IMG/VR virus record: IMGVR_UViG_3300042317_000587
Coordinates: 1 to 32,960 of that record
Length of the DNA: 32,960 nucleotides
Strand: one strand, 5' to 3'
Source of the DNA: a virus
Positions 7,098 to 22,446 of this stretch are shown here, one piece after another. The notes beneath the pieces were generated by a model. That model was not told the DNA's origin. It ran no database searches and saw only the letters and a program-made list of their open reading frames with translations. Numbering within the stretch: the stretch's first letter is position 1; each line of letters begins with the position of its first letter. A program made the translations under genes and the position numbers.

Positions 7098-7128
7098 ATT
7101 TTAGCATGTTACTATTTGGTAATATCAA
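7098..7128 (-). promoter_or_regulatory. Promoter for the LamG-like gene
   Basis: On the minus strand TTGATA (-35) and TGCTAAAAT (extended -10) are separated by 19 bases. They span the end of the ribonucleotide reductase gene and the short gap before the ATG at 7082. A ribosome-binding site (AGAGGTT) follows. Confidence 0.5.
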
Positions 7129-9052
7129 CTATTTCGCATACCCCTGCTACACAAGATAATTCTTGAGATCCAGTAGTTCCATCTTCTTTTTCATACATTG
7201 AAAGTATTTCCCATTGAATATCTGATGGAGACTTCTTTACCCAGTCTTCATACTCATCTTTAGAAATTTCTTGATATGGGGCTTGCTTATAAGTATGCTC
7301 ACTTGCTGGTAAGAAAGATACACCACCAATTGAATCAAAGTTATCAAAAACCCAAGCACCTACTCTTAGCCATTCATCTTCGTGGACATTGATCGTAACG
7401 CTAGGGTTATGCTCAGTCCAATAAGTTCTATAAATCTTCCACATCTCTAGATGATCTATGGCTGTTAAATCTTTTGTTATTGTTGCATTCTTTGGAGCCT
7501 TTTGAGGAAAATAAAATACTGTTGTTTCATCAGGCTTCATTACGTCTGGTTCATTTGGAATTCCTGAATCTTTTAAAAATTGTGTTAATGGATCATTGTT
7601 TGACCCACGAACACTTCTAATGTAATACTCTGAATACCACGGATGAATTCCGCTAGACACCCCGACCAGTTGACTTACAGTGCCTGAAGGCTTAACACAA
7701 GTAATTGATACGGAAGGATTAATGTTTAATTTTTTTGCTTCATCATTATTAACCTTAACCGACTCTAATCTCATATCAGTCAACAACTGCTCTAATGCTT
7801 TTCCTGCTGTTGAAGTAATCTTATTACCATAAATTCCAGTTAAAGAAACTCCTAATAATCTTTCTTCTTCACAATTATCTTTCCATGTCTTACGAAGATA
7901 TTTAAAATTAGTTAGTGTTGATTGCCATGTTCCAAGAATTGTAGCAAGTTTAACTTTTTCCATTAAATCTTCTCTTGTATCTTCTGCCGAAATAACTACT
8001 TCTGTTAAATTACAAAATTCATTAGGACGAAGAATAATTTCTCCACATGGATTTGTTCCAGCAATCAAAGAAGCATCTCTTCTTCCAAAAGACTCTACAT
8101 GTCTACGAACTGAGTCTATGTTGTAGATTCCTCTTTCTCCAGATTTTGATTCATATAGATTTCTCCACTCACGTAAAAATTGTGCAGTGTTTGGTTTAGT
8201 ATTATAAACTGCTGAGTTATTTGCTAGTGATCTTTGTGATTGTGTTTCCCACCATGATCCACTTTTTGCTTTAGCCATTTCAAAATCATCAAGATTAGAA
8301 AGACTAATAAGTGCACTACGGCGTACTCCACCAACTACAACAACTTCTCCAACTTTACACATTAAATCGTGTGCTTCAATTGGTTTTAATCTACGACCTG
8401 CTGCGTTTCTAAAAGTATCTGTTGTAAATGTAAATAATGCATTAAGAGGTCCAGGACCAGAAGCACGACCACCAAAAGTTTTTAGTCTTGCTCCTGAAGG
8501 ACGAACCTTTGACATATCCCATTGTGGAATTTGACCTTGTGATAATAATGCAATTAATTCTTTAAATGCTTTTGCCCATCCAAGTTTAGAATCTTCCACA
8601 ACAATAGTTGTTGCTGTTTGATTAAAAGATTCTGCAATTATAGGAAGTTCATCAACATATTTTGATTCTACTGAAAATCCTACACCAGTTCCATTCATTA
8701 AAACATACATTGCTTCATCAAATGCACGAAGACTATCTACTGCAATAAAAGAACAGTTATATGCTGCAATGTGATCACGATCTAACGCTGGACCTGCAGT
8801 CATCAAGGCCCTCATAGAAGGCATAATTTTATGATTTAAAATTGAATCTTTAACTTCATCAAAAATTTTAGCATTTGGGCTATAGCCATAATTTAATACT
8901 AAATGATCTTTCATGAAATTGATATATCTATCTACCGTTTCACTCCAAGTTTCTCTTCTATTTAATTCAGGTATCCATCTAGCGTACCTAGAGATATGAA
9001 TAAAATTCTTATATGGATCTGTTATTGACCCGTTTTGATTAATAAATGACAT
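7112..9052 (-). CDS. nrdJ: Adenosylcobalamin-dependent ribonucleotide reductase (class II)
   Basis: 646 residues. It reduces ribonucleotides to deoxyribonucleotides using a B12-generated thiyl radical, supplying dNTPs for phage replication. Visible active-site residues: Cys100 (AAYNCSF) and Cys347 (NEFCNLTE) as the reducing pair, the radical cysteine Cys336 with Glu338 in 'AGTNPCGEI', and 'VKPSGTVSQLVGVSSGIHPW' in the barrel. The C-terminal CVAGVC (Cys634/Cys639) is the swinging pair rereduced by thioredoxin-like donors. This pattern fits the monomeric ribonucleoside-triphosphate reductase group (Lactobacillus leichmannii type), though it is somewhat shorter. A TAGGAG site lies about 10 bases before the ATG. 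No small subunit or activase is needed; the host must provide cobalamin. Confidence 0.93.
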   Translation of the reverse strand: MSFINQNGSITDPYKNFIHISRYARWIPELNRRETWSETVDRYINFMKDHLVLNYGYSPNAKIFDEVKDSILNHKIMPSMRALMTAGPALDRDHIAAYNCSFIAVDSLRAFDEAMYVLMNGTGVGFSVESKYVDELPIIAESFNQTATTIVVEDSKLGWAKAFKELIALLSQGQIPQWDMSKVRPSGARLKTFGGRASGPGPLNALFTFTTDTFRNAAGRRLKPIEAHDLMCKVGEVVVVGGVRRSALISLSNLDDFEMAKAKSGSWWETQSQRSLANNSAVYNTKPNTAQFLREWRNLYESKSGERGIYNIDSVRRHVESFGRRDASLIAGTNPCGEIILRPNEFCNLTEVVISAEDTREDLMEKVKLATILGTWQSTLTNFKYLRKTWKDNCEEERLLGVSLTGIYGNKITSTAGKALEQLLTDMRLESVKVNNDEAKKLNINPSVSITCVKPSGTVSQLVGVSSGIHPWYSEYYIRSVRGSNNDPLTQFLKDSGIPNEPDVMKPDETTVFYFPQKAPKNATITKDLTAIDHLEMWKIYRTYWTEHNPSVTINVHEDEWLRVGAWVFDNFDSIGGVSFLPASEHTYKQAPYQEISKDEYEDWVKKSPSDIQWEILSMYEKEDGTTGSQELSCVAGVCEIVDITK

Positions 9053-9416: not shown

Positions 9417-9926
9417 ATGAAGAGTGTAATATTATCGATAGTAGCGTTTATTTTTGTAGGAACTTATTCTAATTATGTAGATAGACATAGACCAATTTAT
9501 ACCGCCGAACCTTTGGTGGCTGTCCAACAAGGACAAGCCACCTTTAGCCCTTTAAAGGGGCTTCTAGAGGCTCGTGAGAGCAATACTGACGTTGCTGCTA
9601 GGTCTAGGGCCAACTTCACTGATCCTAAGTCTCAGAGGGCTATATTGGCCTATCAGCACTATGTAAAAGAAAATGTTCCCAACAAAGAACTATCCTGTTA
9701 TTTTAATATCATTGACAAAGAATCAAAATGGAATCCTCTTGCACAAAACCCTAAATCAACTGCATTTGGCATTGGTCAATTTTTAAATAGCACCTGGGGA
9801 CTAGTTGATAGTAAAAAAACTGAAAACCCATACGCTCAAATTGATGCAATGATCAAATATGTTAATTTAATTTATGGTGATGGATGTAAGGCTTGGGACT
9901 TTAAAAAATATAAAGGCTGGTACTAG
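9417..9926 (+). CDS. Secreted lytic transglycosylase (endolysin candidate)
   Basis: 169 residues. Residues 4-19 form a hydrophobic signal or anchor segment after a basic start (MKS). A linker follows, then a transglycosylase-like domain from about 85: 'IIDKESKWNP' holds the likely catalytic Glu102; 'STAFGIGQFLNSTWG' (114-128) is the GxxQ substrate-binding motif of the SLT family; and 'NPYAQIDAMIKYV' is the following helix. The ending C157-KAW...KGWY resembles actinobacterial secreted transglycosylases, whose ends read like C.AW.F....WY. It cleaves peptidoglycan glycan strands for lysis or for DNA entry. Strong Shine-Dalgarno AAGGAGGT. It converges with the glycosyltransferase, whose stop codon shares the bases CTAG. 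Confidence 0.85.
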   Translation: MKSVILSIVAFIFVGTYSNYVDRHRPIYTAEPLVAVQQGQATFSPLKGLLEARESNTDVAARSRANFTDPKSQRAILAYQHYVKENVPNKELSCYFNIIDKESKWNPLAQNPKSTAFGIGQFLNSTWGLVDSKKTENPYAQIDAMIKYVNLIYGDGCKAWDFKKYKGWY

Positions 9927-11014
9927 AGTTCTCTGATCTCTCTATAAACCTTATCCCATTCAGGACCTCTTGCTTCAATACTATGAAACTCTTTTGCTAA
10001 CTTATAGTTATTCTGTCTTTCAATATTTCTAACCTTTTGACTTTTTAACTCTTCTAGATGACCCAACCACTCATCTTTGGTATTTGCAACCCTGCCAATT
10101 CCATACTCTTCATATAAAAACTTATACTCTTCTATATTTTCTGCAATAAAAGGAATACCAGCAGCAGAATACTCTAAACCTTTTATAAATGATTTTGCAA
10201 GATTGAACTCAACATGTCTCAATGGAACTAATCCGATATCCATTTTTCTAAACATTTCTCCATAAGTTAATATAGGCTTCATGCCTTCGCTAGAAAATCT
10301 TTTAGCAGGAATTTGCATTTGCTCTTGAACCGTTGGGGCATTAATAATATGACCAGAGTGATGAAAACGTAAATCATTTTTTTCAACAAACTCTCCAACA
10401 AAAGGACTCAAAGTTTCTAGATCTCCAGAACGCCAAGGAGTTGCTCCCACCCAACCAACTGTTGGCCAATTACCAGAAGTATCTTTTCTCATTTGAAAGT
10501 TTTTAAAATCTAAAGAATTTCTAACCATGTATATAGGTTTATTTGGATATTGTTTTTTATAAAAATCTCTTAGAAAGGGAGTAGAGGTAATTAAGGCATC
10601 TGCTAATTCCATACCCCTAAAATAATGATCTCTATTATTTTTAGGATTAGTTTTAGGATCAGTTGAAGTGTATGCCATATTTGTTGGCTCCAAGCCAGCA
10701 TGGTGATCGTCTACATCTATTACAATTTTTTGACCACGACTTTGTGCTTCAGGAATATTGTTAACTAAATTTTCTAACATCATAAGTTTTAATACAACTA
10801 TGTCCCAACCATGAATTGCTTTTTTATCTGGAATTAATAATCCAAAACCATGTTCTGGAGAAAATGCTGGAAAGCCCATTCCAACTTCCCAATCTTTTTC
10901 TTTTAATTGTTGCATTGGAAGAAAACATCTATACCAAGCACATCCATTTGGTTGTAAAGGCTTAGTTCCCCATGACCAATCATAGGTTAAGAAACATACT
11001 GTAGGTTTTGACAT
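9923..11014 (-). CDS. GT-B fold glycosyltransferase
   Basis: 363 residues from the ATG at 11014. The longer reading from a GTG at 11059 starts inside a hairpin and is less likely. Start: MSKPTVCFLTYDWSWG, the first beta strand of a GT-B fold, with 'NGCAWYRCFLPMQQLKE' following. The middle has 'KIVIDVDDHHAGLEP' and 'ADALITSTPFLRDFYKK', then 'PTVGWVGATPWRSGDLE' opens the second Rossmann half. 'MDIGLVPLRHVEFNLAKSFI', with 'KGLEYSAAGIPFIAEN' after it, is the sugar-nucleotide binding end seen in GT4-type enzymes. It would transfer a sugar from an NDP-sugar to phage DNA, a virion protein or a host surface polymer. It ends tail-to-tail with the lysin, the two stops overlapping in CTAG. Acceptor unknown. 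Confidence 0.85.
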   Translation of the reverse strand: MSKPTVCFLTYDWSWGTKPLQPNGCAWYRCFLPMQQLKEKDWEVGMGFPAFSPEHGFGLLIPDKKAIHGWDIVVLKLMMLENLVNNIPEAQSRGQKIVIDVDDHHAGLEPTNMAYTSTDPKTNPKNNRDHYFRGMELADALITSTPFLRDFYKKQYPNKPIYMVRNSLDFKNFQMRKDTSGNWPTVGWVGATPWRSGDLETLSPFVGEFVEKNDLRFHHSGHIINAPTVQEQMQIPAKRFSSEGMKPILTYGEMFRKMDIGLVPLRHVEFNLAKSFIKGLEYSAAGIPFIAENIEEYKFLYEEYGIGRVANTKDEWLGHLEELKSQKVRNIERQNNYKLAKEFHSIEARGPEWDKVYREIREL

Positions 11015-11032
11015 ACTAAACTTTCTATTAAG

Positions 11033-11061
11033 GGGTGGATAAGATTGTGTCCTATCCACCC
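11033..11061 (-). other. 9-bp inverted repeat between holin-like gene and glycosyltransferase
   Basis: GGGTGGATA and TATCCACCC form a perfect 9-bp stem around an 11-base loop (11042-11052). It lacks a T-run on either strand, so it is not a canonical intrinsic terminator. It lies in the untranslated stretch between the two genes and covers the alternative GTG start at 11059, so it may be an mRNA-processing or translation-control hairpin, or a protein-binding site. Confidence 0.55.
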
Positions 11062-11344: not shown

Positions 11345-11373
11345 ATTGTACACCCTCCGTAGAGTGATGTCAA
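11345..11373 (-). promoter_or_regulatory. Consensus promoter of the holin-like gene
   Basis: On the minus strand a perfect TTGACA (complement of 11368-11373) is followed at exactly 17 bases by TACAAT (complement of 11345-11350), with GTG before it. This is the closest match to housekeeping sigma consensus in the window. The -35 overlaps the 3' end of the dioxygenase operon. Confidence 0.75.
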
Positions 11374-11948
11374 TCCTTGTACCAGAATCCTGGCGACATA
11401 TACTTTAATCCCTTAGTAACAACCATAGACTGGTGGTAGTAAGGATCTACTGATGGAAAGGCTATTAAACTTCCTGCGGTAGGTTTAATTAAAACTTCTT
11501 GTTCTTTAAAATATAATTCTCCACCATCATAATTATCATTAATATATAAGACTACAGATAGCACAGGAGATCTTTCATCATCATATGAATCAATATGAGA
11601 TCCCATTTCTTTTCCAGTTGAATATTTGGCTATTGATATTGGTGTTAAATATCCTAAATCTATATTATGTTCATTTGCATAATCTTTAGAAGAGTTAACT
11701 ATTGCATTACGAACTTTTTTATTTATCGATGTAAGTCTTTCATTAGTTTCATCAATGATAGAAGGATTAATAATTTTTTGATACCCGAAATCGTATGAGT
11801 CATCACTTGCCTTCCACTGTTTCCACCTTGTTATAGATGTAGTATTATTTAATAACTCATCTGTTTCTTCAATATCTTTTATTAAAACATAAGGATTTTC
11901 AATAACATCCTCATAATAATGTATCTTATCAAACTTAGTTATCTTCAT
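11370..11948 (-). CDS. 2-oxoglutarate/Fe(II) dioxygenase, copy 1
   Basis: 192 residues from the ATG at 11948 (TTG at 11960 is an alternative). Prolyl-4-hydroxylase-like double-stranded beta helix: iron ligands in 'GSHIDSYDD' (HxD) and the distal His of 'DPYYHQSMV', and a Lys in 'GLKYMSPGFW' at the 2-oxoglutarate position. 'LYINDNYDGGELYF' is the family's typical strand pair. These enzymes hydroxylate a substrate with O2 and 2-oxoglutarate, giving succinate and CO2. Last gene of the eight-gene operon; its start overlaps the end of copy 2. Substrate unknown. Confidence 0.85.
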   Translation of the reverse strand: MKITKFDKIHYYEDVIENPYVLIKDIEETDELLNNTTSITRWKQWKASDDSYDFGYQKIINPSIIDETNERLTSINKKVRNAIVNSSKDYANEHNIDLGYLTPISIAKYSTGKEMGSHIDSYDDERSPVLSVVLYINDNYDGGELYFKEQEVLIKPTAGSLIAFPSVDPYYHQSMVVTKGLKYMSPGFWYKD

Positions 11949-12483
11949 CTTTAAATCCAAACATAATTGCTGATATCTTACTTCCTGCGGTAATTAGACT
12001 AGGCATATGACTATATGGTTCAACAGATGGGTATATTAAAATACTTCCAGCACTAAGTTTTAATGTTACATTTTGTTTATCAAACACCATTTCTCCTCCA
12101 TAGTAGTTATCATTTAAGGTAATAATAACTGTTACACATGGGGAGTTATGTTCTCCATTAGAATCTGTATGAGGCCCTAAGTGTTTTCCTGGATACGATT
12201 TATGTACAATCATATCTGTAAATTTTTTTATTTTTATGTTATTTTTTATTTCATAATCACTAATACAATTTTCTAACTTATCTTCTATATCTGTTATCTT
12301 AACCTTTTTATATTCAGTAAACTCATAAGGGTTTAGTTCATGTATTTTAATACCATTAATTTCTTTTGTTGGATAAAAAACCCATGGATCTTTTTCATTA
12401 TTTATCCTATCTACAATATCTTGATAATTTTTTATTACATCTTTATAATAATATATTTTTTCATTAATATATAGGTTATACAA
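11935..12483 (-). CDS. 2-oxoglutarate/Fe(II) dioxygenase, copy 2
   Basis: 182 residues beginning with a TTG codon at 12483 (AAGGGA upstream). HxD in 'LGPHTDSNGEH', distal His in 'EPYSHMPSLI', and a Lys in 'AGSKISAIMFGF' at the cosubstrate position. 'LNDNYYGGEMVF' replaces the usual YxGGE. It is closest in layout to copy 1 (same length class and 'SAGSILIYPSVEPY' against 'TAGSLIAFPSVDPY'), so those two are probably a recent duplication. Starts within the last codons of copy 3. Confidence 0.82.
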   Translation of the reverse strand: MYNLYINEKIYYYKDVIKNYQDIVDRINNEKDPWVFYPTKEINGIKIHELNPYEFTEYKKVKITDIEDKLENCISDYEIKNNIKIKKFTDMIVHKSYPGKHLGPHTDSNGEHNSPCVTVIITLNDNYYGGEMVFDKQNVTLKLSAGSILIYPSVEPYSHMPSLITAGSKISAIMFGFKDEDN

Positions 12484-13156
12484 GTTTATTTCCCTTGTCC
12501 CATTCTATTTTTTGAACTGCTTGCTCTTCTCTAACCTTTTCAATTTCCTTTTCCCACTTATCCAAAGTTTCTTCATCATATACTGCATCAGCATAATCCC
12601 AAAATGAAACCATTGTATACCTTGTTCCTTTTGTTATTTCTTTTACTCCATGAATATTTTCGTGACCACCTGGGAACATAATGAAGGAATACACAGGAGG
12701 TTTAAACTCTAACTTATGATCAGGGAAATATAGTTCTCCACCTTCGTAATCATCGTTTAAGTATAATATACCAACATATTTATTTATATGAAAGGCGTTT
12801 GGATTTCCATCATGGTCTGAGTTGTCTGAATGTGGTGCAGCAAATCCTCCAACTTTCCATTTTTGTGCATGAGATGTGTTTGCTCTTAATTCTCTTTCAA
12901 AAAACATCTCACATGATTGTTTAAACTTATCTCTTAAATTATCAAAATGTTTAGGATCTAAACCTAATTCAATAAGCCTTTGATCATGTGGTGCCAAGCC
13001 CATACCAAGAGAATTATAAAAAGCAATATCTCCCCAAATTTGTGCTTGAGACTCAAAATATTTAATCATTGCCTTTGCTTCATCTGCTGTAACAAAGTTA
13101 TCAATTCTTGCAATATCGTTTTTATAGAATTTAAGATCTTCTTTAGTAAAAGTCAT
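12476..13156 (-). CDS. 2-oxoglutarate/Fe(II) dioxygenase, copy 3
   Basis: 226 residues. Helical N-terminal region (residues 1-90, with 'VTADEAKAMIKYFESQAQIW'), then the catalytic beta helix: HxD in 'FAAPHSDNSDHDG', 'LNDDYEGGELYFPDHKLEFK', distal His in 'ENIHGVKEITKG', and the Arg in 'TRYTMVSFWD' for the 2-oxoglutarate carboxylate. It ends with a charged coiled tail. Overlaps both neighbours by a few bases, so translation is coupled. Most similar to copy 5 (YFPDH/YFPQH, HGVKE). Confidence 0.88.
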   Translation of the reverse strand: MTFTKEDLKFYKNDIARIDNFVTADEAKAMIKYFESQAQIWGDIAFYNSLGMGLAPHDQRLIELGLDPKHFDNLRDKFKQSCEMFFERELRANTSHAQKWKVGGFAAPHSDNSDHDGNPNAFHINKYVGILYLNDDYEGGELYFPDHKLEFKPPVYSFIMFPGGHENIHGVKEITKGTRYTMVSFWDYADAVYDEETLDKWEKEIEKVREEQAVQKIEWDKGNKLV

Positions 13157-13919
13157 ACACCCTCATGTCCTTTTCTATTCTTTCTTCTTCCATTTTACAC
13201 CATATTTCTTTTCCATACTTTTCTTGATTTTTAAGCCATTCTTCAGAGCCTGTATGATAGAACTGGTAAAAAGATCTAATTAAATATCTTGGATTTCCAG
13301 ATATCTTTTTAACACCATGTAGATAAGGGTGCTCGTCTGCTAAAAATTCAGGGTGTCCAGATGGAAATACAATTACATCTCCAGCAACTGGTTTATAATC
13401 TATATACTGATCTCCAACTTTAAATGATATTTCTCCACCGTCATAATCGTCATTTAAATACATAGTGCAAGTTAAAGCAAATTTATATCCTGGAACATCT
13501 TTCATCCATGGTACGTAATCTGTATGCCTAGACATACTCATTCCTTTTCCTACTCTACCCTCTTCGCCTTCGTCTGGTATATATTTGGAAAATGAAGGAC
13601 CCATCATTTGCCAATCTCCAGGTAGGTCTAATTTATATTCTTTTAAAAAGTTATCAGTGCTATCAAAAAATGCTTTCTTAACCATTTCAAGATAATTTAT
13701 TTCTTTTTGTAATTTTTCATTTTGTATACCAGAATGTATGGCGTTATTGTCTATTTGATAAACGTAAGTTCCAAAAAAACTCCACGGTTTCCAGTCTTTA
13801 AATAAATATGTTGTATCTGAATCTTCTTCTGCTTTTTTTAATATATCTACTAGATCATCACAGTTATTTAATAAACCTTTATATACATGTATCTTAGGAA
13901 ATAGTTTAATATATTCCAT
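13143..13919 (-). CDS. 2-oxoglutarate/Fe(II) dioxygenase, copy 4
   Basis: 258 residues, the longest of the six. HxD in 'SMSRHTDYVPW', 'LNDDYDGGEISFKVG', the wall strand 'PVAGDVIVFPSGHPEF', distal His in 'YLHGVKKISG', and Arg in 'PRYLIRSFYQF'. The C-terminal 30 residues are charged and helical. Its ATG directly follows the stop of copy 5 (TAAATG). All catalytic positions are kept. Confidence 0.88.
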   Translation of the reverse strand: MEYIKLFPKIHVYKGLLNNCDDLVDILKKAEEDSDTTYLFKDWKPWSFFGTYVYQIDNNAIHSGIQNEKLQKEINYLEMVKKAFFDSTDNFLKEYKLDLPGDWQMMGPSFSKYIPDEGEEGRVGKGMSMSRHTDYVPWMKDVPGYKFALTCTMYLNDDYDGGEISFKVGDQYIDYKPVAGDVIVFPSGHPEFLADEHPYLHGVKKISGNPRYLIRSFYQFYHTGSEEWLKNQEKYGKEIWCKMEEERIEKDMRVYDFY

Positions 13920-14603
13920 TTATTTACCGTGCCCTACTATAGTCCAAAAAAATGGAAGTGTGTATCTAACACCAGCAGTAACTTCTTTTACCCCATGTAT
14001 AAAGTTTTTATCTCCTGGAAAAAAATATGCTGCACCTGCTTTAGGTTTAAACTCAATATCATGTTGTGGAAAGTATAGTTCTCCACCTTCATAATCATCA
14101 TTAAGGTACATTAATCCAGCAATGTCATAATATGGAAAATTATTTGGTTTTCCTGAGTTTTCTCCTTCATGCAATTCTTTATCTGCATGTGGTAGTTGAT
14201 AATTTCCTGGAAACCATCTTACAAAAGCAGGAAATGTTGGTACGGCATTAACGTTTAAATGAGCATCTACCTTTTCTTTAAATCTTGCTAGTAGTTCTAC
14301 AATTTTATCTCTAACTATATTTGCTGAATCTTGTTGTGCAATTTCTTTTTGATTTGCTACACGGTTAGCCCAAAAACTAGCATCATAAATCATAACACCA
14401 TCTTTATCATAAACACTTTCATCTTTGTGCCAATTTTCTAAGTTAACTGCAAAGTTATACAATAACTCTTTATCTTCTTTAGTCATAAAATCTTCTAAAC
14501 TTACAATATTGTCTTTAGATGATCCAAAAGATCCAGACGGGGTTATAGATACCCTATTTTTATCTGTTTCTTCCATTAATTTTTCTAATTCTTTTGGATT
14601 CAT
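13920..14603 (-). CDS. 2-oxoglutarate/Fe(II) dioxygenase, copy 5
   Basis: 227 residues. HxD in 'YQLPHADKELHEG', 'LNDDYEGGELYFPQH', 'AGAAYFFPGDKNFIHGVKE' with the distal His, and Arg in 'VRYTLPFFW'. A TGGTAAAAT element at 14610-14618 lies only some 7 bases upstream of the ATG, so it may have its own leaderless transcript; no Shine-Dalgarno is seen. Downstream of the unknown gene at 14624 with a 20-base gap, the largest in this operon. Confidence 0.88.
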   Translation of the reverse strand: MNPKELEKLMEETDKNRVSITPSGSFGSSKDNIVSLEDFMTKEDKELLYNFAVNLENWHKDESVYDKDGVMIYDASFWANRVANQKEIAQQDSANIVRDKIVELLARFKEKVDAHLNVNAVPTFPAFVRWFPGNYQLPHADKELHEGENSGKPNNFPYYDIAGLMYLNDDYEGGELYFPQHDIEFKPKAGAAYFFPGDKNFIHGVKEVTAGVRYTLPFFWTIVGHGK

Positions 14604-14609
14604 AATTTT

Positions 14610-14618
14610 ATTTTACCA
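14610..14618 (-). promoter_or_regulatory. Extended -10 promoter inside the dioxygenase operon
   Basis: The minus strand reads TGGTAAAAT. Initiation 7 bases downstream falls on or next to the ATG at 14603, implying a leaderless mRNA for copies 5 to 1. No -35 consensus is seen. Confidence 0.4.
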
Positions 14619-14623
14619 TAGGA

Positions 14624-15358
14624 CTATTCATATGATCTTCTATGCCAGTCTACATTTTTATATACCCCTCCATCAGGCACTCTATATTTAGCAGCATTAT
14701 CAATATTTTTTTGAGGAATAGACATTGGGTCTTCAACAATTATAGAAGAAGTCCAGTTTTCTCTTTTAAACGGAAATACCTGAACAAATGGGGTTCCTTT
14801 AGGTATTACACCAGTCCAGCCTTCTCTTAAAAAAAATGGTAGGTTTCCATTAAGGTTAACAACATCGTTATCAATAATTCCAGATGTATTTATAAATGGT
14901 AAATCAAATCTATTAAATGGAGTTGTATACAGAGCACTATATCCTTCTGGTAATATAGTTCCCCAGTCTACAAACCAAGAGAAATGATCTAAGTAGTATC
15001 CGTCTGGTTGATAAAATCCAAGCATTGGTGGTCTTTCACTACAAAAACTTTGATTTTTTTCATCAGTTATTTTATGACGAATATCTCCTTGCTCATCTAA
15101 ATAAAACTCTATATCGCAAGGGGTATACATAAAATATCCACTCATCATTACATCCATAAATGGCATACATGCCTTCCAACTAGCAATTTTGCCACCGTCT
15201 TTATCTTCATAATATTCTTTAGTTTCAGGGTTAGTTATAAATCTTTCTGCTTTTGTATACCACTCTGGTAAAGACTTAGATGCAGAAGATGGTTTAGTGC
15301 TGGTTCTTTCTGTTTGCCAAAATCTGTTTGTAATAAACTTTATTTCTTTGCTATCCAC
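14624..15358 (-). CDS. Conserved phage protein of unknown function, paralogue A
   Basis: 244 residues from a GTG at 15358, preceded by AGGAGAAA. It is a clear paralogue of the gene at 21745: shared landmarks are 'KSLPEWY', 'CMPFMD....SGY', 'CDIEF', 'P.GYSALYTTPFNRFDLPF', 'TSG..D', 'LPFFL', 'IPKGTPFVQVFPFKRENW'. The even spacing of aromatic beta strands suggests a beta barrel or cupin-like fold. No metal triad is visible. The stop of the preceding gene overlaps this start by 8 bases. Position in the dioxygenase operon suggests a partner role, perhaps substrate binding, which is inference. Confidence 0.7.
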   Translation of the reverse strand: MDSKEIKFITNRFWQTERTSTKPSSASKSLPEWYTKAERFITNPETKEYYEDKDGGKIASWKACMPFMDVMMSGYFMYTPCDIEFYLDEQGDIRHKITDEKNQSFCSERPPMLGFYQPDGYYLDHFSWFVDWGTILPEGYSALYTTPFNRFDLPFINTSGIIDNDVVNLNGNLPFFLREGWTGVIPKGTPFVQVFPFKRENWTSSIIVEDPMSIPQKNIDNAAKYRVPDGGVYKNVDWHRRSYE

Positions 15359-16061
15359 TATTTCTCCTATTATCGTTTATTATTAGTTTTAAAGACTTTA
15401 CCTCATGTTCACCAATTTGAACATCGTTATGATCAGTAGCATTTCTATACCAGTTAGTCCATTCACCCTTTTTATTAAGTTCATATGCCACCTTGCCTCT
15501 TTCTTCATTATCTTTATACCACTTCTCATCCATATCAAAATCATTTAAATTTAATTCTATATCTGACATGCTAGTTAAAGATATAGGTACAAGTGTTGCA
15601 AATGGCTCATTTGCTTTAATTGTTATAGCCTTATCTGGCTTTAATATTTTTATAGCAGAAGGAAATTCTTGATCAAAAAATGAGGTACTAATTAAACTAG
15701 TAAAAGTTTGATATGAATCATTAAACATGTTTGGTACTGGCATATGTAAAAAACTAATATTGCTATCTGACTTTATAACTATACCAGTTTTAAAACTAAC
15801 AGTTGCATTTGCCCTAGAGTTTTGTATAAATTCTTCTCCAGAAAGTATTTTTATGTGTTCTGGTGATGAATCACTAATTCCATCCCAAACAAAAGTAACA
15901 TCTATTGGTAAAGATAATTCATACCCTATAGTATTTGCCAAACTTATAGGAAAACATTTATAGGCATGTTTTTCAGCAGTTTCTTCCATCCAATCTCTTT
16001 TTATTCGTGTTTGTTTTATATTAACAGATTGGTTTTGACAGTAAACATTTACTGTTGACAT
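15351..16061 (-). CDS. DUF6065-like protein
   Basis: 236 residues. The stretch 'RDWMEETAEKHAYKCFPISL', then 'ANTIGYEL', matches the signature I associate with the DUF6065 family (RxWM...AYxCxPLxxAN), followed by 'VTFVWDG'. The second half contains 'AITIKANEPFATLVPISL', which resembles 'VIPKGTPFVQVFPFK' of its neighbour, so the two families may share a fold. The function is unknown. It starts with TAATG overlapping the stop of dioxygenase copy 6 and runs into the next gene. The family name is from memory and needs a profile search. Confidence 0.6.
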   Translation of the reverse strand: MSTVNVYCQNQSVNIKQTRIKRDWMEETAEKHAYKCFPISLANTIGYELSLPIDVTFVWDGISDSSPEHIKILSGEEFIQNSRANATVSFKTGIVIKSDSNISFLHMPVPNMFNDSYQTFTSLISTSFFDQEFPSAIKILKPDKAITIKANEPFATLVPISLTSMSDIELNLNDFDMDEKWYKDNEERGKVAYELNKKGEWTNWYRNATDHNDVQIGEHEVKSLKLIINDNRRNSG

Positions 16062-16735
16062 TAGTCTTCCGTATTATTATAAATTTCTGGTGTATGATAC
16101 TTAGCACTATAATCCAACATAGTTACTAAAGAATATTTAACACCAGACGTTACCTTTTCAGCAACATGTGGATACATAAAATTAGAAGGAAATACGTACA
16201 TGTCTCCAGCCTTTGGTTTAATTTTTAAACCCTGCAATCTAAATGACAGTTCTCCACCTTCATAATTATCATTTAAATAACAAACTAACGAAACTGTACA
16301 ATTATATGAATATCCATGATCATGGTGTTCCATAAAATGTTGACCTTCACCATATCTAATAAAGTTAAATGCTTCCCAATATTTTAAGTCCATAATATTA
16401 AATCTAGATCTATAGTGATCTACTGCTGCAGCCTTTCTATCGTAACATTGCTGCCATATTTTTGCTAATTCATTATATTCTTTTGATCCATCATCAACCA
16501 AATCTGATTTTTTATATTTAAAATCAACACAGTCACGATAGTCTGGCATAACTTGACCATATCCTACTTGTGCAACTATCCAGTTATATTGACTTTCTGG
16601 GTTAGATAATACTTTTTCTAATCTATTGACTAAGTCTAATGATTCTGGTAATACATCTCTATAAACATATATGCCATTACCTAAGTCTTCTACTTCTGAC
16701 CATGATTGAACTATATTTTCTTCTCTTTGCATCAT
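16061..16735 (-). CDS. 2-oxoglutarate/Fe(II) dioxygenase, copy 6 (first in operon)
   Basis: 224 residues, starting MMQREENIV with GAAAGG ahead. N-terminal helical part (to about 130), then HxD in 'FMEHHDHGYSYN', 'YLNDNYEGGELSFRL', distal His in 'FMYPHVAEKVTSG', and Lys in 'VKYSLVTMLDYSA'. It is the first gene behind the promoter at 16757-16785 and is more diverged in the N-terminal half (a Tyr- and Asp-rich insertion near 60-85). Catalytically complete. Confidence 0.88.
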   Translation of the reverse strand: MMQREENIVQSWSEVEDLGNGIYVYRDVLPESLDLVNRLEKVLSNPESQYNWIVAQVGYGQVMPDYRDCVDFKYKKSDLVDDGSKEYNELAKIWQQCYDRKAAAVDHYRSRFNIMDLKYWEAFNFIRYGEGQHFMEHHDHGYSYNCTVSLVCYLNDNYEGGELSFRLQGLKIKPKAGDMYVFPSNFMYPHVAEKVTSGVKYSLVTMLDYSAKYHTPEIYNNTED

Positions 16736-16756: not shown

Positions 16757-16785
16757 ATAATATCATAAAGATACTAGTTTAGCAA
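16757..16785 (-). promoter_or_regulatory. Promoter of the dioxygenase operon
   Basis: On the minus strand TTGCTA (complement of 16780-16785) and TGATATTAT (extended -10; TATTAT is the complement of 16757-16762) are separated by exactly 17 bases. It sits in the 43-base gap after the S74 gene and before the first dioxygenase; a Shine-Dalgarno GAAAGG precedes the start. Confidence 0.65.
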
Positions 16786-17462
16786 GAGCACTGTTTATTT
16801 TTTAATTCTTCTATTTCTTTAGTTAGTTCTTGTACTGATTTTACAAGGATAGGTATCATCTTAATATAGTTTATCTTTAATTGACTTTCATTAGAATCAT
16901 CAACCATACCCAGCCACTCTACACCGTATTTTTCTTGAATTCTTTGTAGGTCTTGAGCAATAAAACCAGCATCATTTACTCCAGCAACTGACCCATCTCT
17001 CATATTCCATACATAAGATACTGGTAATAAATCTTTAACAAAGTCTAATCCCAATTCTAATGATTTAATATCTTGCTTGTCTCTTTCGTCTGAATAAAAG
17101 TTAGGTGGGAAGAATGGTGGAAAGAATGGTGGAAAGAATGGTGGGAAGAATGGTACTGGTGAAGGTGTAACAGAATTACTTATTCCAGAAGCAGTAGAAG
17201 TTGCAATTCCGTTAGACAATGTAACAGTAAATGTATAAGACACACCTGCTGTTAATCCATTGACAGTAATTGGAGAAGTTGAACTAGTTCCAGTTATTCC
17301 TCCAGGACTTGATGTTGCTGTATAAGTTGTTCCTGTTGGTTTTCCTAAATATGATGGGGCTGTAAAGCCAACTGTAGCACTTATAATTCCTGCAGTTGCA
17401 GTACCAATTATAGGTGTTCCTGGTTGTTTTCCACCACTATTTGATCCAATAATTAATGGCAT
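16779..17462 (-). CDS. FN3 tail protein with PPFF linker and S74 chaperone domain
   Basis: 227 residues in three parts. Residues 10-100: fibronectin type III-like domain ('ATVGFTAPSYLGKPTGTTY', 'ITVNGLTAGVSYTFTV'). Residues 103-120: proline-rich linker PFF(PPFF)3. Residues 124-227: peptidase S74 intramolecular chaperone, with the signature 'SDERDKQDIKSLELGLDFV', catalytic Ser124 and Lys129 at the family's five-residue spacing, 'SYVWNMRDG', 'GFIAQDLQ', 'INYIKMIPILVKSVQEL', and a C-terminal coiled coil ending CSC. S74 domains help tail spikes trimerise and then cut themselves off. Here cleavage would leave a very small FN3+linker mature protein. Next gene upstream is its paralogue with a different C-terminus. 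Confidence 0.85.
   Translation of the reverse strand: MPLIIGSNSGGKQPGTPIIGTATAGIISATVGFTAPSYLGKPTGTTYTATSSPGGITGTSSTSPITVNGLTAGVSYTFTVTLSNGIATSTASGISNSVTPSPVPFFPPFFPPFFPPFFPPNFYSDERDKQDIKSLELGLDFVKDLLPVSYVWNMRDGSVAGVNDAGFIAQDLQRIQEKYGVEWLGMVDDSNESQLKINYIKMIPILVKSVQELTKEIEELKNKQCSC
17104..17151 (-). repeat. Four 12-bp repeats coding PPFF (S74 gene)
   Basis: Four units of GGTGGGAAGAAT or its GGTGGAAAGAAT variant on the plus strand, coding phenylalanine and proline residues (PPFF) on the minus strand. Twelve-base units keep the frame, so copy number can change by slippage without breaking the gene. Confidence 0.85.
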
Positions 17463-17463
17463 T

Positions 17464-18324
17464 TTATACCTGCTTATTTCTACAAACTATATTTCCAGCA
17501 ATAAATGCACTATGATCTTCTACAGATATAGCATATGTTACTTTTGGAGATTCATCTTTTGTTATTTCGGTAATTTCAAGGGGTACAAATTTATTATCTT
17601 CTTCACTATAAGACATTATCTTATTACCAATAGTTAATTCATTTGAGGTAATAAATTTCCAATTACCCCCGTCTTCTACTAGTACTGGTTGCTCTAAGGA
17701 TACCCTTGTAGACTCATCATTATTAAATATTAAAGTTTGTTTAATAATTGGATAAACACTTTTAATTTTAGTTTTTACTAATGACATATCTTCAATATTT
17801 GAATGAGTCATAGCCCAAATATCTTGACCTACCTCTAATTCTTCTGCTCTTGCATGTTTAATAGAATCATTATCTCCTACTGTTTTAACTAATGTTTCTG
17901 CATAGATACATCCTGCAACGTGAATACTATTTACATAAAATCTTGGTGGGAAGAATGGTGGGAAGAATGGTGGGAAGAATGGTGGGAAGAATGGTGGGAA
18001 GAACGGTGGGAAGAACGGTGGAACAATTGCTGTTATTGAATTACTTGCTGCAGATTCTGGACCAAAACCTATTCCATTAGACAATGCAACCTTAAAAGTG
18101 TAAGCGGTTCCTCCAGTTAAACCAGTTACTGTTATTGGAGATGATGAACCTGTTCCTGTAAATGATCCAGGGGTTGAAGTTACTGTATAACTTGTTCCTG
18201 AAGGTTTTCCTAAATATGATGGGGCTGTAAAAGAAACTGTAGCATTTTGAATTCCTGCAGTTGCTGTCCCAATTGTTGGAGCACCTGGTAATCTTCCAGC
18301 ATTTCCTCTAATTTTTTTAGACAT
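17464..18324 (-). CDS. FN3 tail protein with PPFF linker and degenerate Hint domain
   Basis: 286 residues. Residues 10-100: FN3-like domain closely related to that of the next gene ('VSFTAPSYLGKPSGTSY'). Residues 102-127: six PPFF repeats. Residues 139-286: Hint (intein/hedgehog-type) fold, starting at Cys139 in 'AGCIYAETLVKTV', with 'AEELEVGQDIWAM', 'WKFITSNELTIGNKIMSY', 'VTYAISVEDHSAFIAGNIV'. The block B position, normally TxxH, reads SLEQ (His to Gln212), and the final HN reads RN (282-283), so normal autoprocessing residues are missing although Cys139 and Asn283 are kept. It may be inactive or a scaffold. Followed by the S74 paralogue with a 1-base gap. Confidence 0.8.
   Translation of the reverse strand: MSKKIRGNAGRLPGAPTIGTATAGIQNATVSFTAPSYLGKPSGTSYTVTSTPGSFTGTGSSSPITVTGLTGGTAYTFKVALSNGIGFGPESAASNSITAIVPPFFPPFFPPFFPPFFPPFFPPFFPPRFYVNSIHVAGCIYAETLVKTVGDNDSIKHARAEELEVGQDIWAMTHSNIEDMSLVKTKIKSVYPIIKQTLIFNNDESTRVSLEQPVLVEDGGNWKFITSNELTIGNKIMSYSEEDNKFVPLEITEITKDESPKVTYAISVEDHSAFIAGNIVCRNKQV
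17945..18016 (-). repeat. Six 12-bp repeats coding PPFF (Hint gene)
   Basis: Six nearly identical units (GGTGGGAAGAAT, the last two ending AAC) in direct tandem, coding six PPFF repeats on the minus strand. The partner gene has four related units, some of them GGTGGAAAGAAT, so copy number differs between paralogues. Confidence 0.9.
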
Positions 18325-18325
18325 T

Positions 18326-19330
18326 TTATGATGCTAAGTCTCCTATCGCAACCCAAGTATTTGTTGCTCTTTTTATAAGAGTAGCAGATGTCCATTGTGC
18401 ACGAAGTTTTAATCCTGGGCTACCGTTTACGGTAACTCCAATACCAGCAGCAATAGTTGTTTGTCCAGATCCTGTTTGTAAAATTATAATTTGACATCCT
18501 ATTGGAAAGGCTACATCAGAATTTGGTGGAACGGTTACGCTATTAGCGGAAGCATTATCTCTTTCAACCATTTTTCCTACATCTGATAAAACTAATGTAT
18601 ATGTAGCAGAACCAGTTTGAGCATTTTGTGGAATTCTTATGTCTGATGGTCCAGTTGATGTTATTGTATTTAAAGTTGCACTGGTTGCAATTACACTTGT
18701 TGATTCTAATGAACCAATTTTCAATGTATCATATGTAGCAGAAGTAAAATCTACCGTTGTAGATGGAAGAGATGTTACGTCAGAAAATAATTTCCATTTT
18801 CCAGAGTCTGAAACATCTTTAACCAATCCTGAATATTTTTCTCCAGAAGAATTATATTTAGCAACAGTTCCTAAATCTACAGAGTTTGCAGCGTTGTCAC
18901 TTGCTAATAATATTAAAGGATCTTTTACTGATAAATTTGTTGTATTAATAAAGGTTGTTGAGCCACTAACTTGTAAATCTCCAGTTACCGATAAATCTCC
19001 ACCTACGGTTAAGTCATCTGTGATTGTTACATCGTCTGGTAAACCAACAACAACGTTTCCTACAGATGCGGACACCGATACTTCGTTTGCTGTTCCAGTT
19101 AAAGAATTAACGGAACTTTCTTCTACTTCTGTCAATCTATCATTAATATCTTTAAGGTGAGCGTGAACACTATCTGAAGAGGGTGCTCCAGCACCACTAT
19201 AATTATCTATTCCATAATGATATAACTTAAAAGCCTCAACTATATTTGCCTGATCGGTTAATGAAGGTATTTTTGTATCAAATTCGGTAGCCTCGTATCC
19301 AGAAGCATCACTTAAAAATTGTCCAGCCAT
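18326..19330 (-). CDS. Tail fibre protein, paralogue of the gene at 20292
   Basis: 334 residues. N-terminus (to about 80) is helical ('YEATEFDTKIPSLTDQANIV'). The middle has beta-solenoid repeats ('TITDDLTVGGDLSVTGDLQV'), 'DPLILLASDNAANSVDLGTV' and 'GLVKDVSDSGKWKLFSDV'. The C-terminal 100 residues ('SANSVTVPPNSDVAFPIG', 'LKLRAQWTSATLIKR', 'TWVAIGDLAS') match the end of the 20292 gene nearly residue by residue. Part of the tail fibre assembly; no enzymatic motif. A promoter-like TGATATAAT lies just ahead and a GGAAGGTG site precedes the ATG. Confidence 0.85.
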   Translation of the reverse strand: MAGQFLSDASGYEATEFDTKIPSLTDQANIVEAFKLYHYGIDNYSGAGAPSSDSVHAHLKDINDRLTEVEESSVNSLTGTANEVSVSASVGNVVVGLPDDVTITDDLTVGGDLSVTGDLQVSGSTTFINTTNLSVKDPLILLASDNAANSVDLGTVAKYNSSGEKYSGLVKDVSDSGKWKLFSDVTSLPSTTVDFTSATYDTLKIGSLESTSVIATSATLNTITSTGPSDIRIPQNAQTGSATYTLVLSDVGKMVERDNASANSVTVPPNSDVAFPIGCQIIILQTGSGQTTIAAGIGVTVNGSPGLKLRAQWTSATLIKRATNTWVAIGDLAS

Positions 19331-19346
19331 TTTATCACCTTCCTAA

Positions 19347-19355
19347 ATTATATCA
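19347..19355 (-). promoter_or_regulatory. Extended -10 element before fibre gene 18326
   Basis: The minus strand reads TGATATAAT, overlapping the stop of the upstream gene, as at 3491. A GGAAGGTG ribosome-binding site follows about 8 bases downstream. No -35 is seen. Confidence 0.45.
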
Positions 19356-20279: not shown

Positions 20280-20291
20280 ATATACCCCTCA

Positions 20292-21695
20292 CTATGCTGA
20301 CAAGTCGCCTATGGCAACCCAAGTATTTTCTGCTCTTTTAATTAATACAGCAGACGCCCATTGTGCACGAAGTTTTAATCCAGGAGTTCCGTTAATTGTT
20401 ACGCCTGCTCCTGGTGTTATGGTTGTTTGTCCAGTGTTTGTTTGCAATACTGTTAACTCGGTTCCAACTGGAAATGCTACAGAAGAATTTGGAGGTACTG
20501 TTAATGTATTTGCTGAACCAACATTCATTTCAACTATCTGATCTGCATTTGACAAAATTAATGTATAGTTTGAAGTTTCGCTATCAAATGTATTTAGTTT
20601 ATCTGCTTTTGTTGCTAGATTAATTCCTGTTAATTGAGATCCGTCACCAATAAATGCTGATGCTGTTACGTTTCCTATAACACTTGCTGAGCCCATTGCA
20701 ACTGGGTCTAATATTCCTTCGTTAAATGCAATTGTTCCAGTTGGCTCAGATTCTACACTTGAGAAAAACTTCCAACGTCCATCTGTTGCGTCTTTTACTA
20801 ATCCTGTGTGTGCGTAGGAACCGTCATTATAATTTCCTACAAAGCCTATATCAACAAGGTTTGCACTTGAGTTACCAGCAAGATAAATCATTGGATCATC
20901 TACTTTAAATTCTGTTACATTTACATATGCTGTTGATCCAGAAACTGTTAATGTTCCATCTATACTCAAATTACCTGTAACTGTTCCTCCTGCTTTAGGA
21001 AGATAAGTTGCTGTTGCGTTTGATTGAGTTAAATATGTAGCAGAGCCAGAATCTATTGCACGTTGATTTGTAAAATATAATCCTGTACCTTCTGCTATAT
21101 CTGTTGTGGTTAAAGCATCTGCATATGATACTGCTGCTGCAGAAGCACTAACTAGTCCTGCTGTTAGATTTAAAGCAATTATTGCTGAATCTGTATAATT
21201 TGTATTTGCAACTGAAGCAGTATTTATAATTCCAACTAATTCTACTTCTGATAAAGATATGTTGTTATTTATTGTTGTTTCTAAATATCCTAATTCTGCA
21301 TCTATATACCCTGTCAATGCTCCACTGGCACTATCAACTCTAAAATCTGTATAATATATATTTGCAGCACTTGCGTTATTTATTTGATTAACTATAGTTG
21401 TTGCAAAGTTTGCATCGTCATTGAGGGCTGCTGCCAATTCGTTAAGGGTGTTTAAAGCACCTGGTGCTGCATCTATTACAGCATTAACCTGTGATGTTGC
21501 TTGGGATAAAGCATATGCTGAAGCACTTTGAACATAGGCTTGAGTAATTGCTTCTGATACAACTGCAAAAGTTGAACCATCATATCGATAAATTTTGTTA
21601 TTTGTAGTATTAACCCACAAGTCTGTTTCTTTTGGATCCAAAGGGGTATCTGGACCAATGATTATTGGTCTTCTTTTATTGCTGGATAATGTCAT
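20292..21695 (-). CDS. Long tail fibre protein
   Basis: 467 residues. N-terminus 'KETDLWVNTTNNKIYRYDGS' is the strand-rich attachment region. Residues 50-205 carry the repeating fibre shaft ('GALNTLNELAAALNDDANFA', the 'SASAAAVSYADAL' type), then beta-solenoid repeats ('VTGNLSIDGTLTVSGSTAYV'), the 'VDDPMIYLAGNSSANLVDIG' region and a C-terminal domain ending 'NTWVAIGDLSA', nearly the same as that of the 18326 protein. It is the upstream gene of a fibre cluster, with its own extended -10 promoter. Confidence 0.85.
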   Translation of the reverse strand: MTLSSNKRRPIIIGPDTPLDPKETDLWVNTTNNKIYRYDGSTFAVVSEAITQAYVQSASAYALSQATSQVNAVIDAAPGALNTLNELAAALNDDANFATTIVNQINNASAANIYYTDFRVDSASGALTGYIDAELGYLETTINNNISLSEVELVGIINTASVANTNYTDSAIIALNLTAGLVSASAAAVSYADALTTTDIAEGTGLYFTNQRAIDSGSATYLTQSNATATYLPKAGGTVTGNLSIDGTLTVSGSTAYVNVTEFKVDDPMIYLAGNSSANLVDIGFVGNYNDGSYAHTGLVKDATDGRWKFFSSVESEPTGTIAFNEGILDPVAMGSASVIGNVTASAFIGDGSQLTGINLATKADKLNTFDSETSNYTLILSNADQIVEMNVGSANTLTVPPNSSVAFPVGTELTVLQTNTGQTTITPGAGVTINGTPGLKLRAQWASAVLIKRAENTWVAIGDLSA

Positions 21696-21744: not shown

Positions 21745-22446
21745 TTAATTATACGACTTCTTTTGCCAGAATAACTTTTTATACCCCCCATAAAGAGTTT
21801 TTCCTATTTGATATAAAGAATTTTTAACAAACCTATCATCATATTTAGATCTTATAGACTCCCAACTATCTCTTTTAATTGGAATAATTTGAACTATTGG
21901 AGTACCCTCTGGAATGATACCCTCAAAATCTTGTTTAAGAAAAAATGGTATTTCTCCACCCATAGAGTACATGTCTGTATCCATAACTCCAGATGTTGTG
22001 GTAAATGGTAGATCAAATCTATTTAATGGGTGCGTAAATATTGCACTATATCCTTTTGGTGTTTGAGTACCCCATTTTAGATTCCAAGCATAGAGTGAAT
22101 TTGAATGGCCACTTGGCCTTGGAAGAGTTTTTGCCATCGCTGGATTTCTATTCATAATTGGCTGTGGTTGCTCTGTCCATCTAAACTCAGTTATCCCTTG
22201 ATCATTTTTACTTACTATGATGTCACACCAAGTTGTGATTGTATACCCTGTTAAAAATGAATCCATGAAAGGTGAGCATAGTTTAACATCTTTATTAAGT
22301 CCATTATCGCCCATAACCATTTCTCCACCTATAAAATTGGTAGCATTTTTATACCATTCAGGAATTAATGATTTGGAGGGTAGTGGGGTAGGAAGTTTAA
22401 TATCTGTATCTAAATCCATTGGAATAAAGTTAATTTTCCTAGCCAT
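21745..22446 (-). CDS. Conserved phage protein of unknown function, paralogue B
   Basis: 233 residues, paralogue of the gene at 14624: 'KSLIPEWYKNATNFI', 'CSPFMDSFLTGY', 'PKGYSAIFTHPLNRFDLPF', 'TTSGVMDTD', 'IPFFLKQDF', 'IPEGTPIVQIIPIKRDSW' are shared. The last 25 residues are basic and aromatic (GGYKKLFWQKKSYN). It stands outside the dioxygenase operon, between fibres and a membrane protein. Function unknown; both copies may share a role in surface or fibre modification. Confidence 0.7.
   Translation of the reverse strand: MARKINFIPMDLDTDIKLPTPLPSKSLIPEWYKNATNFIGGEMVMGDNGLNKDVKLCSPFMDSFLTGYTITTWCDIIVSKNDQGITEFRWTEQPQPIMNRNPAMAKTLPRPSGHSNSLYAWNLKWGTQTPKGYSAIFTHPLNRFDLPFTTTSGVMDTDMYSMGGEIPFFLKQDFEGIIPEGTPIVQIIPIKRDSWESIRSKYDDRFVKNSLYQIGKTLYGGYKKLFWQKKSYN

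Follow-up and report, generated by a model that had tools for sequence, protein, structure and literature searches.

Tandem 2-oxoglutarate/Fe(II) oxygenase genes adjoin genes for Pro/Phe-repeat fibre proteins in freshwater phages and may serve virion modification

Why would a bacterial virus carry six different 2-oxoglutarate (2OG)/Fe(II) dioxygenase genes almost side by side, and on what would their products act? We addressed this question for a 33-kb fragment of a freshwater bacterial virus (IMG/VR record IMGVR_UViG_3300042317_000587, 32,960 nt; hereafter the window), in which the six-oxygenase block occupies positions 11370-16735 as one operon on the - strand. All six oxygenase reading frames are present and intact at the coordinates given in Table 1. 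That of ox1 opens at a TTG at 11960, and the ATG at 11948 is the more likely start; ox2 starts with a TTG that overlaps the stop codon of ox3. The array is separated from the fibre genes by 43 nt and contains internal gaps of at most 20 nt. Scans for promoters and terminators gave no signal clearly above shuffled expectation.

Table 1. Features of the oxygenase array and its surroundings in the window
Feature	Coordinates	Strand	Description
ribonucleotide reductase (RNR)	7112..9052	-	phrog_367; backbone; marks the variable slot on its 3' side
glycosyltransferase	9923..11059	-	phrog_7162; backbone; directly 3' of the array
ox1	11370..11948	-	2OG-Fe(II) oxygenase; PF13640 45.7 bits; ox2 sister
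ox2	11935..12483	-	2OG-Fe(II) oxygenase; PF13640 34.4 bits
ox3	12476..13156	-	2OG-Fe(II) oxygenase; PF13640 36.1 bits
ox4	13143..13919	-	2OG-Fe(II) oxygenase; PF13640 42.1 bits
ox5	13920..14603	-	2OG-Fe(II) oxygenase; PF13640 38.9 bits; core member
dufA	14624..15358	-	phrog_7084 protein; predicted dUTPase-like fold; GxxDxD motif kept
dufB	15351..16061	-	DUF6065 (PF19541), 98.7 bits against a cut-off of 26.6; diverged dufA relative without GxxDxD
ox6	16061..16735	-	2OG-Fe(II) oxygenase; PF13640 58.2 bits; core member
fibre-like protein	16779..17462	-	fn3, (PFFP)n repeat, C-terminal S74 chaperone domain (PF13884 46.7 bits); candidate substrate
fibre-like protein	17464..18324	-	fn3 29.9 bits, (PPFF)n repeat, Hint/intein-like C-terminus (weak matches); candidate substrate
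tail-fibre/structural protein	18326..19330	-	same gene run, upstream; phrog_21510, phrog_18179, phrog_8780
long tail-fibre-type protein	20292..21695	-	upstream; phrog tail families
dufC	21745..22446	-	third DUF6065/phrog_7084 member (profile search and alignment)

Each of the six oxygenases matches PF13640 (2OG-FeII_Oxy_3) at 34.4-58.2 bits, clearing the curated 27-bit cut-off. In all six, the alignment places the HxD motif, distal histidine and Lys/Arg that a preliminary description of this DNA had read, with the Lys/Arg exactly 10 residues past that histidine. No iron ligand varies in the family alignments, which comprise 20-58 homologues each; in that of ox1 (A6), His118, Asp120 and His172 are invariant and Lys182 nearly so. 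The same description held that none of the genes has decayed, in agreement with NG86 dN/dS values that are mostly 0.03-0.25 and indicate purifying selection on all six, ox2 being the least constrained (0.24-0.50). Judged by sequence, the six enzymes look active. They are short, single-domain proteins of 182-258 aa; in four other loci (L012, L013, L019 and L020), ox2 carries an additional fused domain (~378 aa). Because every copy has orthologues in relatives, with ox5 and ox6 in every array-bearing phage lineage compared, the proposal that the copies stem from an old expansion is supported. As to the closer pairs suggested earlier, ox1 and ox2 are indeed sisters in the tree, whereas the tree does not join ox3 with ox5, the second most identical pair (33.7%).

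Across the oxygenase families, most of the nearest solved relatives are enzymes that hydroxylate prolyl or lysyl residues of proteins. When the six sequences are pooled in one profile, the best solved match is collagen prolyl 3-hydroxylase 1 (P3H1; E 1.5e-11), and TET-like proteins match weakly. In profile searches with the individual families, P3H1 is also nearest to ox3 (E 1.1e-12) and ox5 (E 9.8e-8), a Bacillus anthracis prolyl 4-hydroxylase (P4H) to ox6 (E 3e-6) and ox4 (E 0.005), and a PKHD hydroxylase to ox1/ox2 (4e-9), followed by the chlorovirus enzyme vCPH (3e-6). The PKHD-type protein nearest to ox1/ox2 has no assigned substrate. The double-stranded beta-helix fold is seen in a model of ox6 (pLDDT 91.7) and is assigned to the other five by sequence. 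Structural comparison of the ox6 model returns prolyl hydroxylases with Z scores of 17-19, including an algal P4H with a (Ser-Pro)5 peptide (Z 18.9).

The two genes embedded in the array, which had been described simply as unknown, turn out to be diverged members of one family (DUF6065/phrog_7084), to which dufC, 38% identical to dufA in the alignment, also belongs. dufA has no Pfam match and is assigned through phrog_7084 (9e-35), which dufB matches at 1.7e-8. The dufA model (pLDDT 94.3) adopts a dUTPase-like fold: its best 50 structural matches are all dUTPases, with Z scores of 8.7-9.8 over ~120 residues, and the best Foldseek E value, in a comparison covering the top 1000 matches, is 3e-3. 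A GxxDxD motif is kept in 137 of 137 dufA homologues and in 0 of 157 dufB homologues; judged by eye, the remaining dUTPase motifs are not clearly retained in dufA. The predicted fold, together with a dufA homologue that adjoins thymidylate synthase in halovirus HSTV-2, hints at nucleotides, and our guess is that the dufA/dufB pair might act as a scaffold or in substrate handling. A literature search on DUF6065 or the PPFF repeat found no relevant publication, and tblastn found neither dufB nor the fn3-PPFF-Hint protein in the isolated phages of INPHARED.

The array lies directly behind fn3 proteins with (PPFF)n-type repeats, and arrays and Pro/Phe-repeat proteins tightly co-occur and adjoin. 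Among 47 contigs retrieved by PPFF-encoding DNA alone, 45 carry PF13640 2OG genes and 37 carry at least four, compared with 6 and 0, respectively, of 40 control contigs with S74 fibres (Fisher p ~1e-15, a value made too optimistic by near-duplicate contigs in the sets). No PF13640 gene was detected in the other two PPFF contigs, and several more carry just one. Conversely, a Pro/Phe-rich protein lies upstream on the same strand in 51 of the 52 array loci for which upstream DNA is available (within 3.5 kb in 49), the exception being L103, and the same Pro/Phe-rich criterion selects none of 3731 control ORFs. In a matched control of 28 contigs chosen by portal family, both the repeat and 2OG genes are missing from 21, and arrays are present in all three that have the repeat, which represent about two independent PPFF-bearing lineages. 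Loci with more oxygenases tend only weakly to have more repeat prolines (rho 0.25, p 0.08). It is unlikely that chance proximity or common ancestry alone produces the association of arrays with the repeat, given cassette-free close relatives and a cassette shared by unrelated phages.

The preliminary description had treated six copies as exceptional. A neighbourhood search for multi-oxygenase operons instead found 80 further IMG/VR loci with 3-10 oxygenase domains each in the same arrangement, relatives carry 3-11 oxygenases, and the array is a common freshwater-phage module. At least six other metagenome contigs contain the block itself with 100% identical proteins, and further ones contain a diverged form of it; we therefore rejected a sequencing or assembly chimera, which had been named as a possible source of the gene cluster, since the same block recurs in many independent metagenomes. 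Close relatives of the window phage mostly lack both array and repeat, whereas unrelated phages share the module and little else: G038, G030, G051 and G054 have the oxygenase and DUF genes in common with the window but only 1-4 other genes.

We consider it probable that the locus is a mobile virion-modification cassette whose oxygenases hydroxylate the phage's own Pro/Phe-repeat fibres. In the proposed mechanism, a run of putative tail-fibre genes has fn3 proteins with (PPFF)n-type repeats at its end and leads, with no sizeable gap, into six diverged predicted 2OG/Fe(II) protein hydroxylases and two DUF6065-family proteins. The oxygenases would most likely use O2, 2-oxoglutarate and Fe(II) on residues of the Pro/Phe repeats, prolines being hydroxylated first and possibly other residues as well, each enzyme at its own position. 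An otherwise very hydrophobic rod could thereby gain polarity or stiffness, or be prepared for later tailoring steps, for example oxidation or glycosylation. We infer the repeat proteins as substrate, proline as target and the effect of modification; that the enzymes probably decorate their own virus's fibres follows from the recurrence of the same pairing in unrelated viruses. The earlier suggestions of a dedicated modification function and of tail proteins as the natural candidate substrate are supported; what is new here is the placement of the array directly behind (PPFF)n fn3 proteins, the strongest clue, which had gone unmentioned, and that the two go together. More tentatively, and with somewhat less than even confidence, we suggest an exchangeable fibre-modification cassette in many unrelated freshwater-phage lineages, in which a Pro/Phe rod is combined with a dedicated, combinatorial set of 3-11 position-specific hydroxylases and sometimes oxidising or other tailoring enzymes, giving a heavily modified fibre, like a hydroxyproline-rich glycoprotein, of a kind so far unknown in bacterial viruses.

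Other fibre genes are also common 5' neighbours of arrays (54-63 of 98 array loci), and further ones lie directly upstream in the window; another fibre protein could therefore be the substrate. The target would then be a different virion protein of the same run (the long fibres at 18326-21695, or the fn3, S74 or Hint domains), with the Pro/Phe repeats just travelling along. We regard this as unlikely, because fibre contigs with the S74 motif and without the repeat almost never carry arrays, a repeat-bearing protein is so regularly found upstream, and unrelated phages share few genes besides those for the oxygenases and DUF proteins. Hydroxylation of host proteins during infection, such as EF-Tu or ribosomal proteins, as carried out by bacterial P4H/OGFOD1-type enzymes, is brought to mind by the Pseudomonas putida P4H/EF-Tu complex, which is among the structures closest to the ox6 model (Z 18.0). 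The link to a fibre repeat and the position at the end of a fibre gene run would be unexpected for such a role, and the widely differing copy number is easier to reconcile with a virion substrate that varies than with a host protein that is conserved, so that we give this reading little credence.

Modification of nucleotides or DNA bases, in which a nucleotide is handled by the dUTPase-like DUF proteins, hydroxylated by the oxygenases and decorated by the neighbouring glycosyltransferase, would accommodate the dufA model (Z up to 9.8), the HSTV-2 neighbour, the downstream RNR and glycosyltransferase genes, and Tet_JBP matches of ox2 and ox6 that are weak and far below the cut-off. It is nonetheless quite improbable: RNR and glycosyltransferase belong to the backbone and are found in array-less relatives, the family profiles match peptidyl hydroxylases first and TET-like proteins weakly, from the six-sequence profile, and the gene order places the array with fibre genes. 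To our knowledge, known base-modification pathways also use fewer than the six to eleven enzymes seen here. A metabolic helper function, by 2OG drawdown or on small-molecule substrates, has a precedent in the proposal that cyanophages modulate 2OG via NtcA in cyanobacteria (Sullivan et al. 2010, PMC3037559). We find it very improbable for the window phage, which is related to actinobacterial phages, as drawdown could proceed without a large set of diverged copies and without a fibre protein as partner.

The viral collagen hydroxylases known from chlorovirus (vCPH, 5c5t) and mimivirus (the lysyl hydroxylase L230, 6ax6/9nev) are 2OG enzymes that act on proteins and share this fold, and both are among the nearest structures. 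Each is a single enzyme in a eukaryotic virus, whereas here tailed phages carry tandem arrays of 3-11, and the candidate substrate next door is a Pro/Phe repeat rather than Gly-X-Y collagen. Compared with P3H1 and the prolyl/lysyl hydroxylases (P4H, LH3) that best match the ox3, ox5 and ox6 profiles, the phage proteins are short and single-domain, and no CRTAP, PPIB or PDI partners were seen. Cyanophages (PMC3037559) and pelagiphages (PMC9599517) likewise carry several non-orthologous 2OG-Fe(II) genes per phage, and phage 2OG oxygenases of phrog_61 are common to them and the window. The passages we consulted place the pelagiphage genes nearby "although not adjacent", often with "ferrochelatase" genes, and describe no fibre-linked tandem array or repeat partner in either group. 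In aquatic phages, 2OG oxygenase genes are common, mostly lack an explanation and usually go under the heading of auxiliary metabolic genes; a recurrent fibre partner, also in unrelated phages, provides a concrete, testable substrate for many of them. If our reading is right, such genes build the virion and do not steer host metabolism, bacterial viruses have elaborate peptidyl hydroxylation of the kind known from collagen and plant cell walls, and phage-encoded 2OG genes in ecological surveys would have to be read differently.

The backbone of the window phage points to Stanwilliamsviridae-like actinophages, a likeness drawn from gene order and homologous genes in the 33-kb fragment (portal 54%, RNR 57% and protease 42% identical, in the same order). 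A search for a T4-type portal gave no match and carries little weight, since its control gave none either. Streptomyces phage Gilson and its relatives (Stanwilliamsviridae) share the glycosyltransferase-RNR-portal-protease order, with a portal ~54% identical; unlike the window, Gilson lacks PF13640 genes and carries no cassette of oxygenases on the upstream side of the glycosyltransferase. Because this glycosyltransferase is conserved in array-less relatives, we rejected it as a regular part of the cassette. In G016, however, two homologues follow the array.

All six oxygenases of the window, a linear IMG/VR fragment of 32,960 bases, score above the Pfam cut-off in a profile search, and in the alignment each retains the HxD motif, the distal His and a Lys/Arg 10 residues further on, bearing out the preliminary description of six 2OG/Fe(II) genes with a preserved iron triad and Lys/Arg. 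The genes, numbered ox1–ox6 from low to high coordinate, are transcribed in the order ox6, dufB, dufA, ox5, ox4, ox3, ox2, ox1; they nearly abut or overlap by a few bases, and 43 nt separate the array from the upstream fibre genes. Pairwise identity is 19–37%, and dN/dS in orthologue comparisons is well below 1 for all six, showing purifying selection. In the oxygenase tree, ox1 and ox2 are sisters, in agreement with their earlier designation as a closer pair; orthologues of ox5 and ox6 occur in every array-bearing lineage compared, and a second such lineage has an oxygenase subfamily of its own.

Coordinates of array genes and associated features
Feature	Position	Strand	Remark
ox1	11370	-	2OG-FeII_Oxy_3
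ox2	11935	-	2OG-FeII_Oxy_3
ox3	12476	-	2OG-FeII_Oxy_3
ox4	13143	-	2OG-FeII_Oxy_3
ox5	13920	-	2OG-FeII_Oxy_3
ox6	16061	-	2OG-FeII_Oxy_3
dufA	14624-15358	-	
dufB	15351-16061	-	
dufC	21745-22446		DUF6065/phrog_7084
Short-chain dehydrogenase	L060:15218-15886		
Short-chain dehydrogenase	L086:7900-8589		also in 26 loci besides L060 and L086
Recurrent protein	L047:14689-15321		14 loci
Recurrent protein	L181:1225-2013		11 loci

Other metagenome contigs, from freshwater lakes going by their sample codes, contain the eight-gene block with a protein identity of 100%, and further contigs have it at 62–92%. A scan with a six-protein alignment found at least 80 loci (a lower bound among the matches listed, all 80 array-bearing) with 3–10 oxygenase domains and DUF6065-family genes in similar order. 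The ox2 protein has two domains and a length of ~378 aa in four loci; separate oxygenase genes number seven in L024, and L170 has 11 oxygenases. Six in tandem had been set against the one or two such genes that phages often carry; given the 3–11 copies in relatives, six is typical of a widespread module and not a record. MAGs assigned to Chitinophagaceae, Verrucomicrobiales and Gammaproteobacteria also include contigs with the module (L353, L354 and L355), probably through phage contamination or other hosts; L354 and L355 carry oxygenases on both strands.

The genes immediately upstream of the array encode two fn3 proteins that carry (PPFF)n repeats; an S74 chaperone domain terminates one of them and a Hint/intein-like domain the other. 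Among contigs of at least 20 kb picked by a DNA pattern for PPFFPPFFPP, oxygenases disregarded, PF13640 matches were present in 45 of 47 (four or more in 37), compared with 6 of 40 control contigs picked by an S74 fibre motif (four or more in none), near-duplicates among contigs making the Fisher values optimistic. The repeat was found in none of these 40 controls. Conversely, where an array locus was preceded by at least 1.5 kb of sequence (52 loci), a Pro/Phe-rich protein was encoded upstream in the same orientation in 51, and within 3.5 kb in 49; none of the 3731 ORFs of control loci encodes one. In a matched control of 28 contigs chosen solely by a portal protein 76–100% identical to the window's, 21 lacked an oxygenase, and none of these had the repeat; five had arrays of four or more, three with the repeat and two cut at the array's 5' edge. 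In the window protein at 17464-18324, a Hint/intein-like domain follows the PPFF repeat (weak PF14890/PF07591 matches) and might serve fibre self-processing or cross-linking. A 545-aa protein amid the fibre genes (23330-24967) has a Methyltransf_24 domain (E 1.5e-7).

Array and repeat together are a module, not a lineage trait. The repeat-bearing phages G038/G030, G051 and G054 have in common with the window the oxygenase and DUF genes and just 1–4 others. The window's backbone order (glycosyltransferase, lysozyme-like, RNR, 1196-aa protein, portal, protease) is kept in array-less relatives, with the variable slot upstream of the glycosyltransferase. Streptomyces phage Gilson has a similar backbone (portal 54%), which makes an actinobacterium the probable host; Gilson has no PF13640 gene. 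In L460, an oxygenase-free relative, a lone DUF6065-family gene (start 371, + strand, 234 aa) occupies the equivalent slot before the glycosyltransferase; the DUF can therefore travel without oxygenases. Of 98 array loci, 28 have a short-chain dehydrogenase gene inside or adjoining the array, as would suit further oxidation of a hydroxylated product. The two recurrent array-associated proteins match neither Pfam nor PHROG; on visual inspection they look like an FkbM-type methyltransferase and a sulfotransferase ('HIPKTSG').

Searched against every PDB sequence, the family profiles of ox3 (1.1e-12) and ox5 (1e-7) came closest to human collagen prolyl 3-hydroxylase 1, and those of ox6 (3e-6) and ox4 (0.005) to B. 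anthracis prolyl 4-hydroxylase. The ox1/ox2 family matched a PKHD-type hydroxylase first (4e-9), then a chlorovirus collagen prolyl hydroxylase (3e-6). The predicted ox6 structure (pLDDT 91.7) matched prolyl hydroxylases at Z 17–19, and its matches include an algal enzyme in complex with a (Ser-Pro)5 peptide. The simplest reading is a peptidyl substrate, and our data support an exchangeable cassette whose dedicated hydroxylases act on the fibre proteins with Pro/Phe repeats encoded just before them. The data show the association of the genes, the purifying selection and the kinship of the enzymes; substrate, residue and physical effect we infer. Hydroxylation would give a strongly hydrophobic repeat a more polar, rod-like character and could ready it for other modifications. 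That another fibre protein is the substrate seems unlikely to us.

dufB belongs to DUF6065 (PF19541), and dufA and dufB both fall in phrog_7084. The AlphaFold2 model of dufA (pLDDT 94.3) best matches dUTPases (Foldseek E 3e-3; VIA Z up to 9.8, 119 residues); a GxxDxD motif resembling motif III of dUTPases is present in 137 of 137 dufA homologues and 0 of 157 dufB homologues, and the haloviral homologue, HSTV-2 gp40, adjoins thymidylate synthase. Nucleotides strike us as a decidedly improbable substrate of the oxygenases, and host proteins as equally so. A role of the array in small-molecule metabolism we rate as the least probable of these alternatives to modification of the Pro/Phe repeats. 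Cyanophages are known to carry numerous 2OG genes, for which links with DNA repair or the metabolism of 2OG have been proposed (PMC3037559).

Pelagiphages are reported to have eight non-orthologous 2OG genes, 'frequently nearby ... although not adjacent' (PMC9599517), whereas those of the window stand in tandem. EGLN3-like phage 2OG proteins have been noted by Phold (PMC12774648). In the open-access literature we found neither DUF6065 nor the Pro/Phe repeat described, nor any tandem array linked to fibre genes; an earlier description may exist elsewhere. PHROG families phrog_3531, phrog_2954, phrog_2297 and phrog_274, named 'ferrochelatase' or 'DNA endonuclease (V)', show matches to 2OG oxygenases. 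Of the two records that contain one particular Synechococcus phage gene (KF156338 and NC_023587), one labels it '2OG-Fe(II) oxygenase' and the other 'ferrochelatase'. The 'ferrochelatase + 2OG' pairs reported from marine phages may be two oxygenases.
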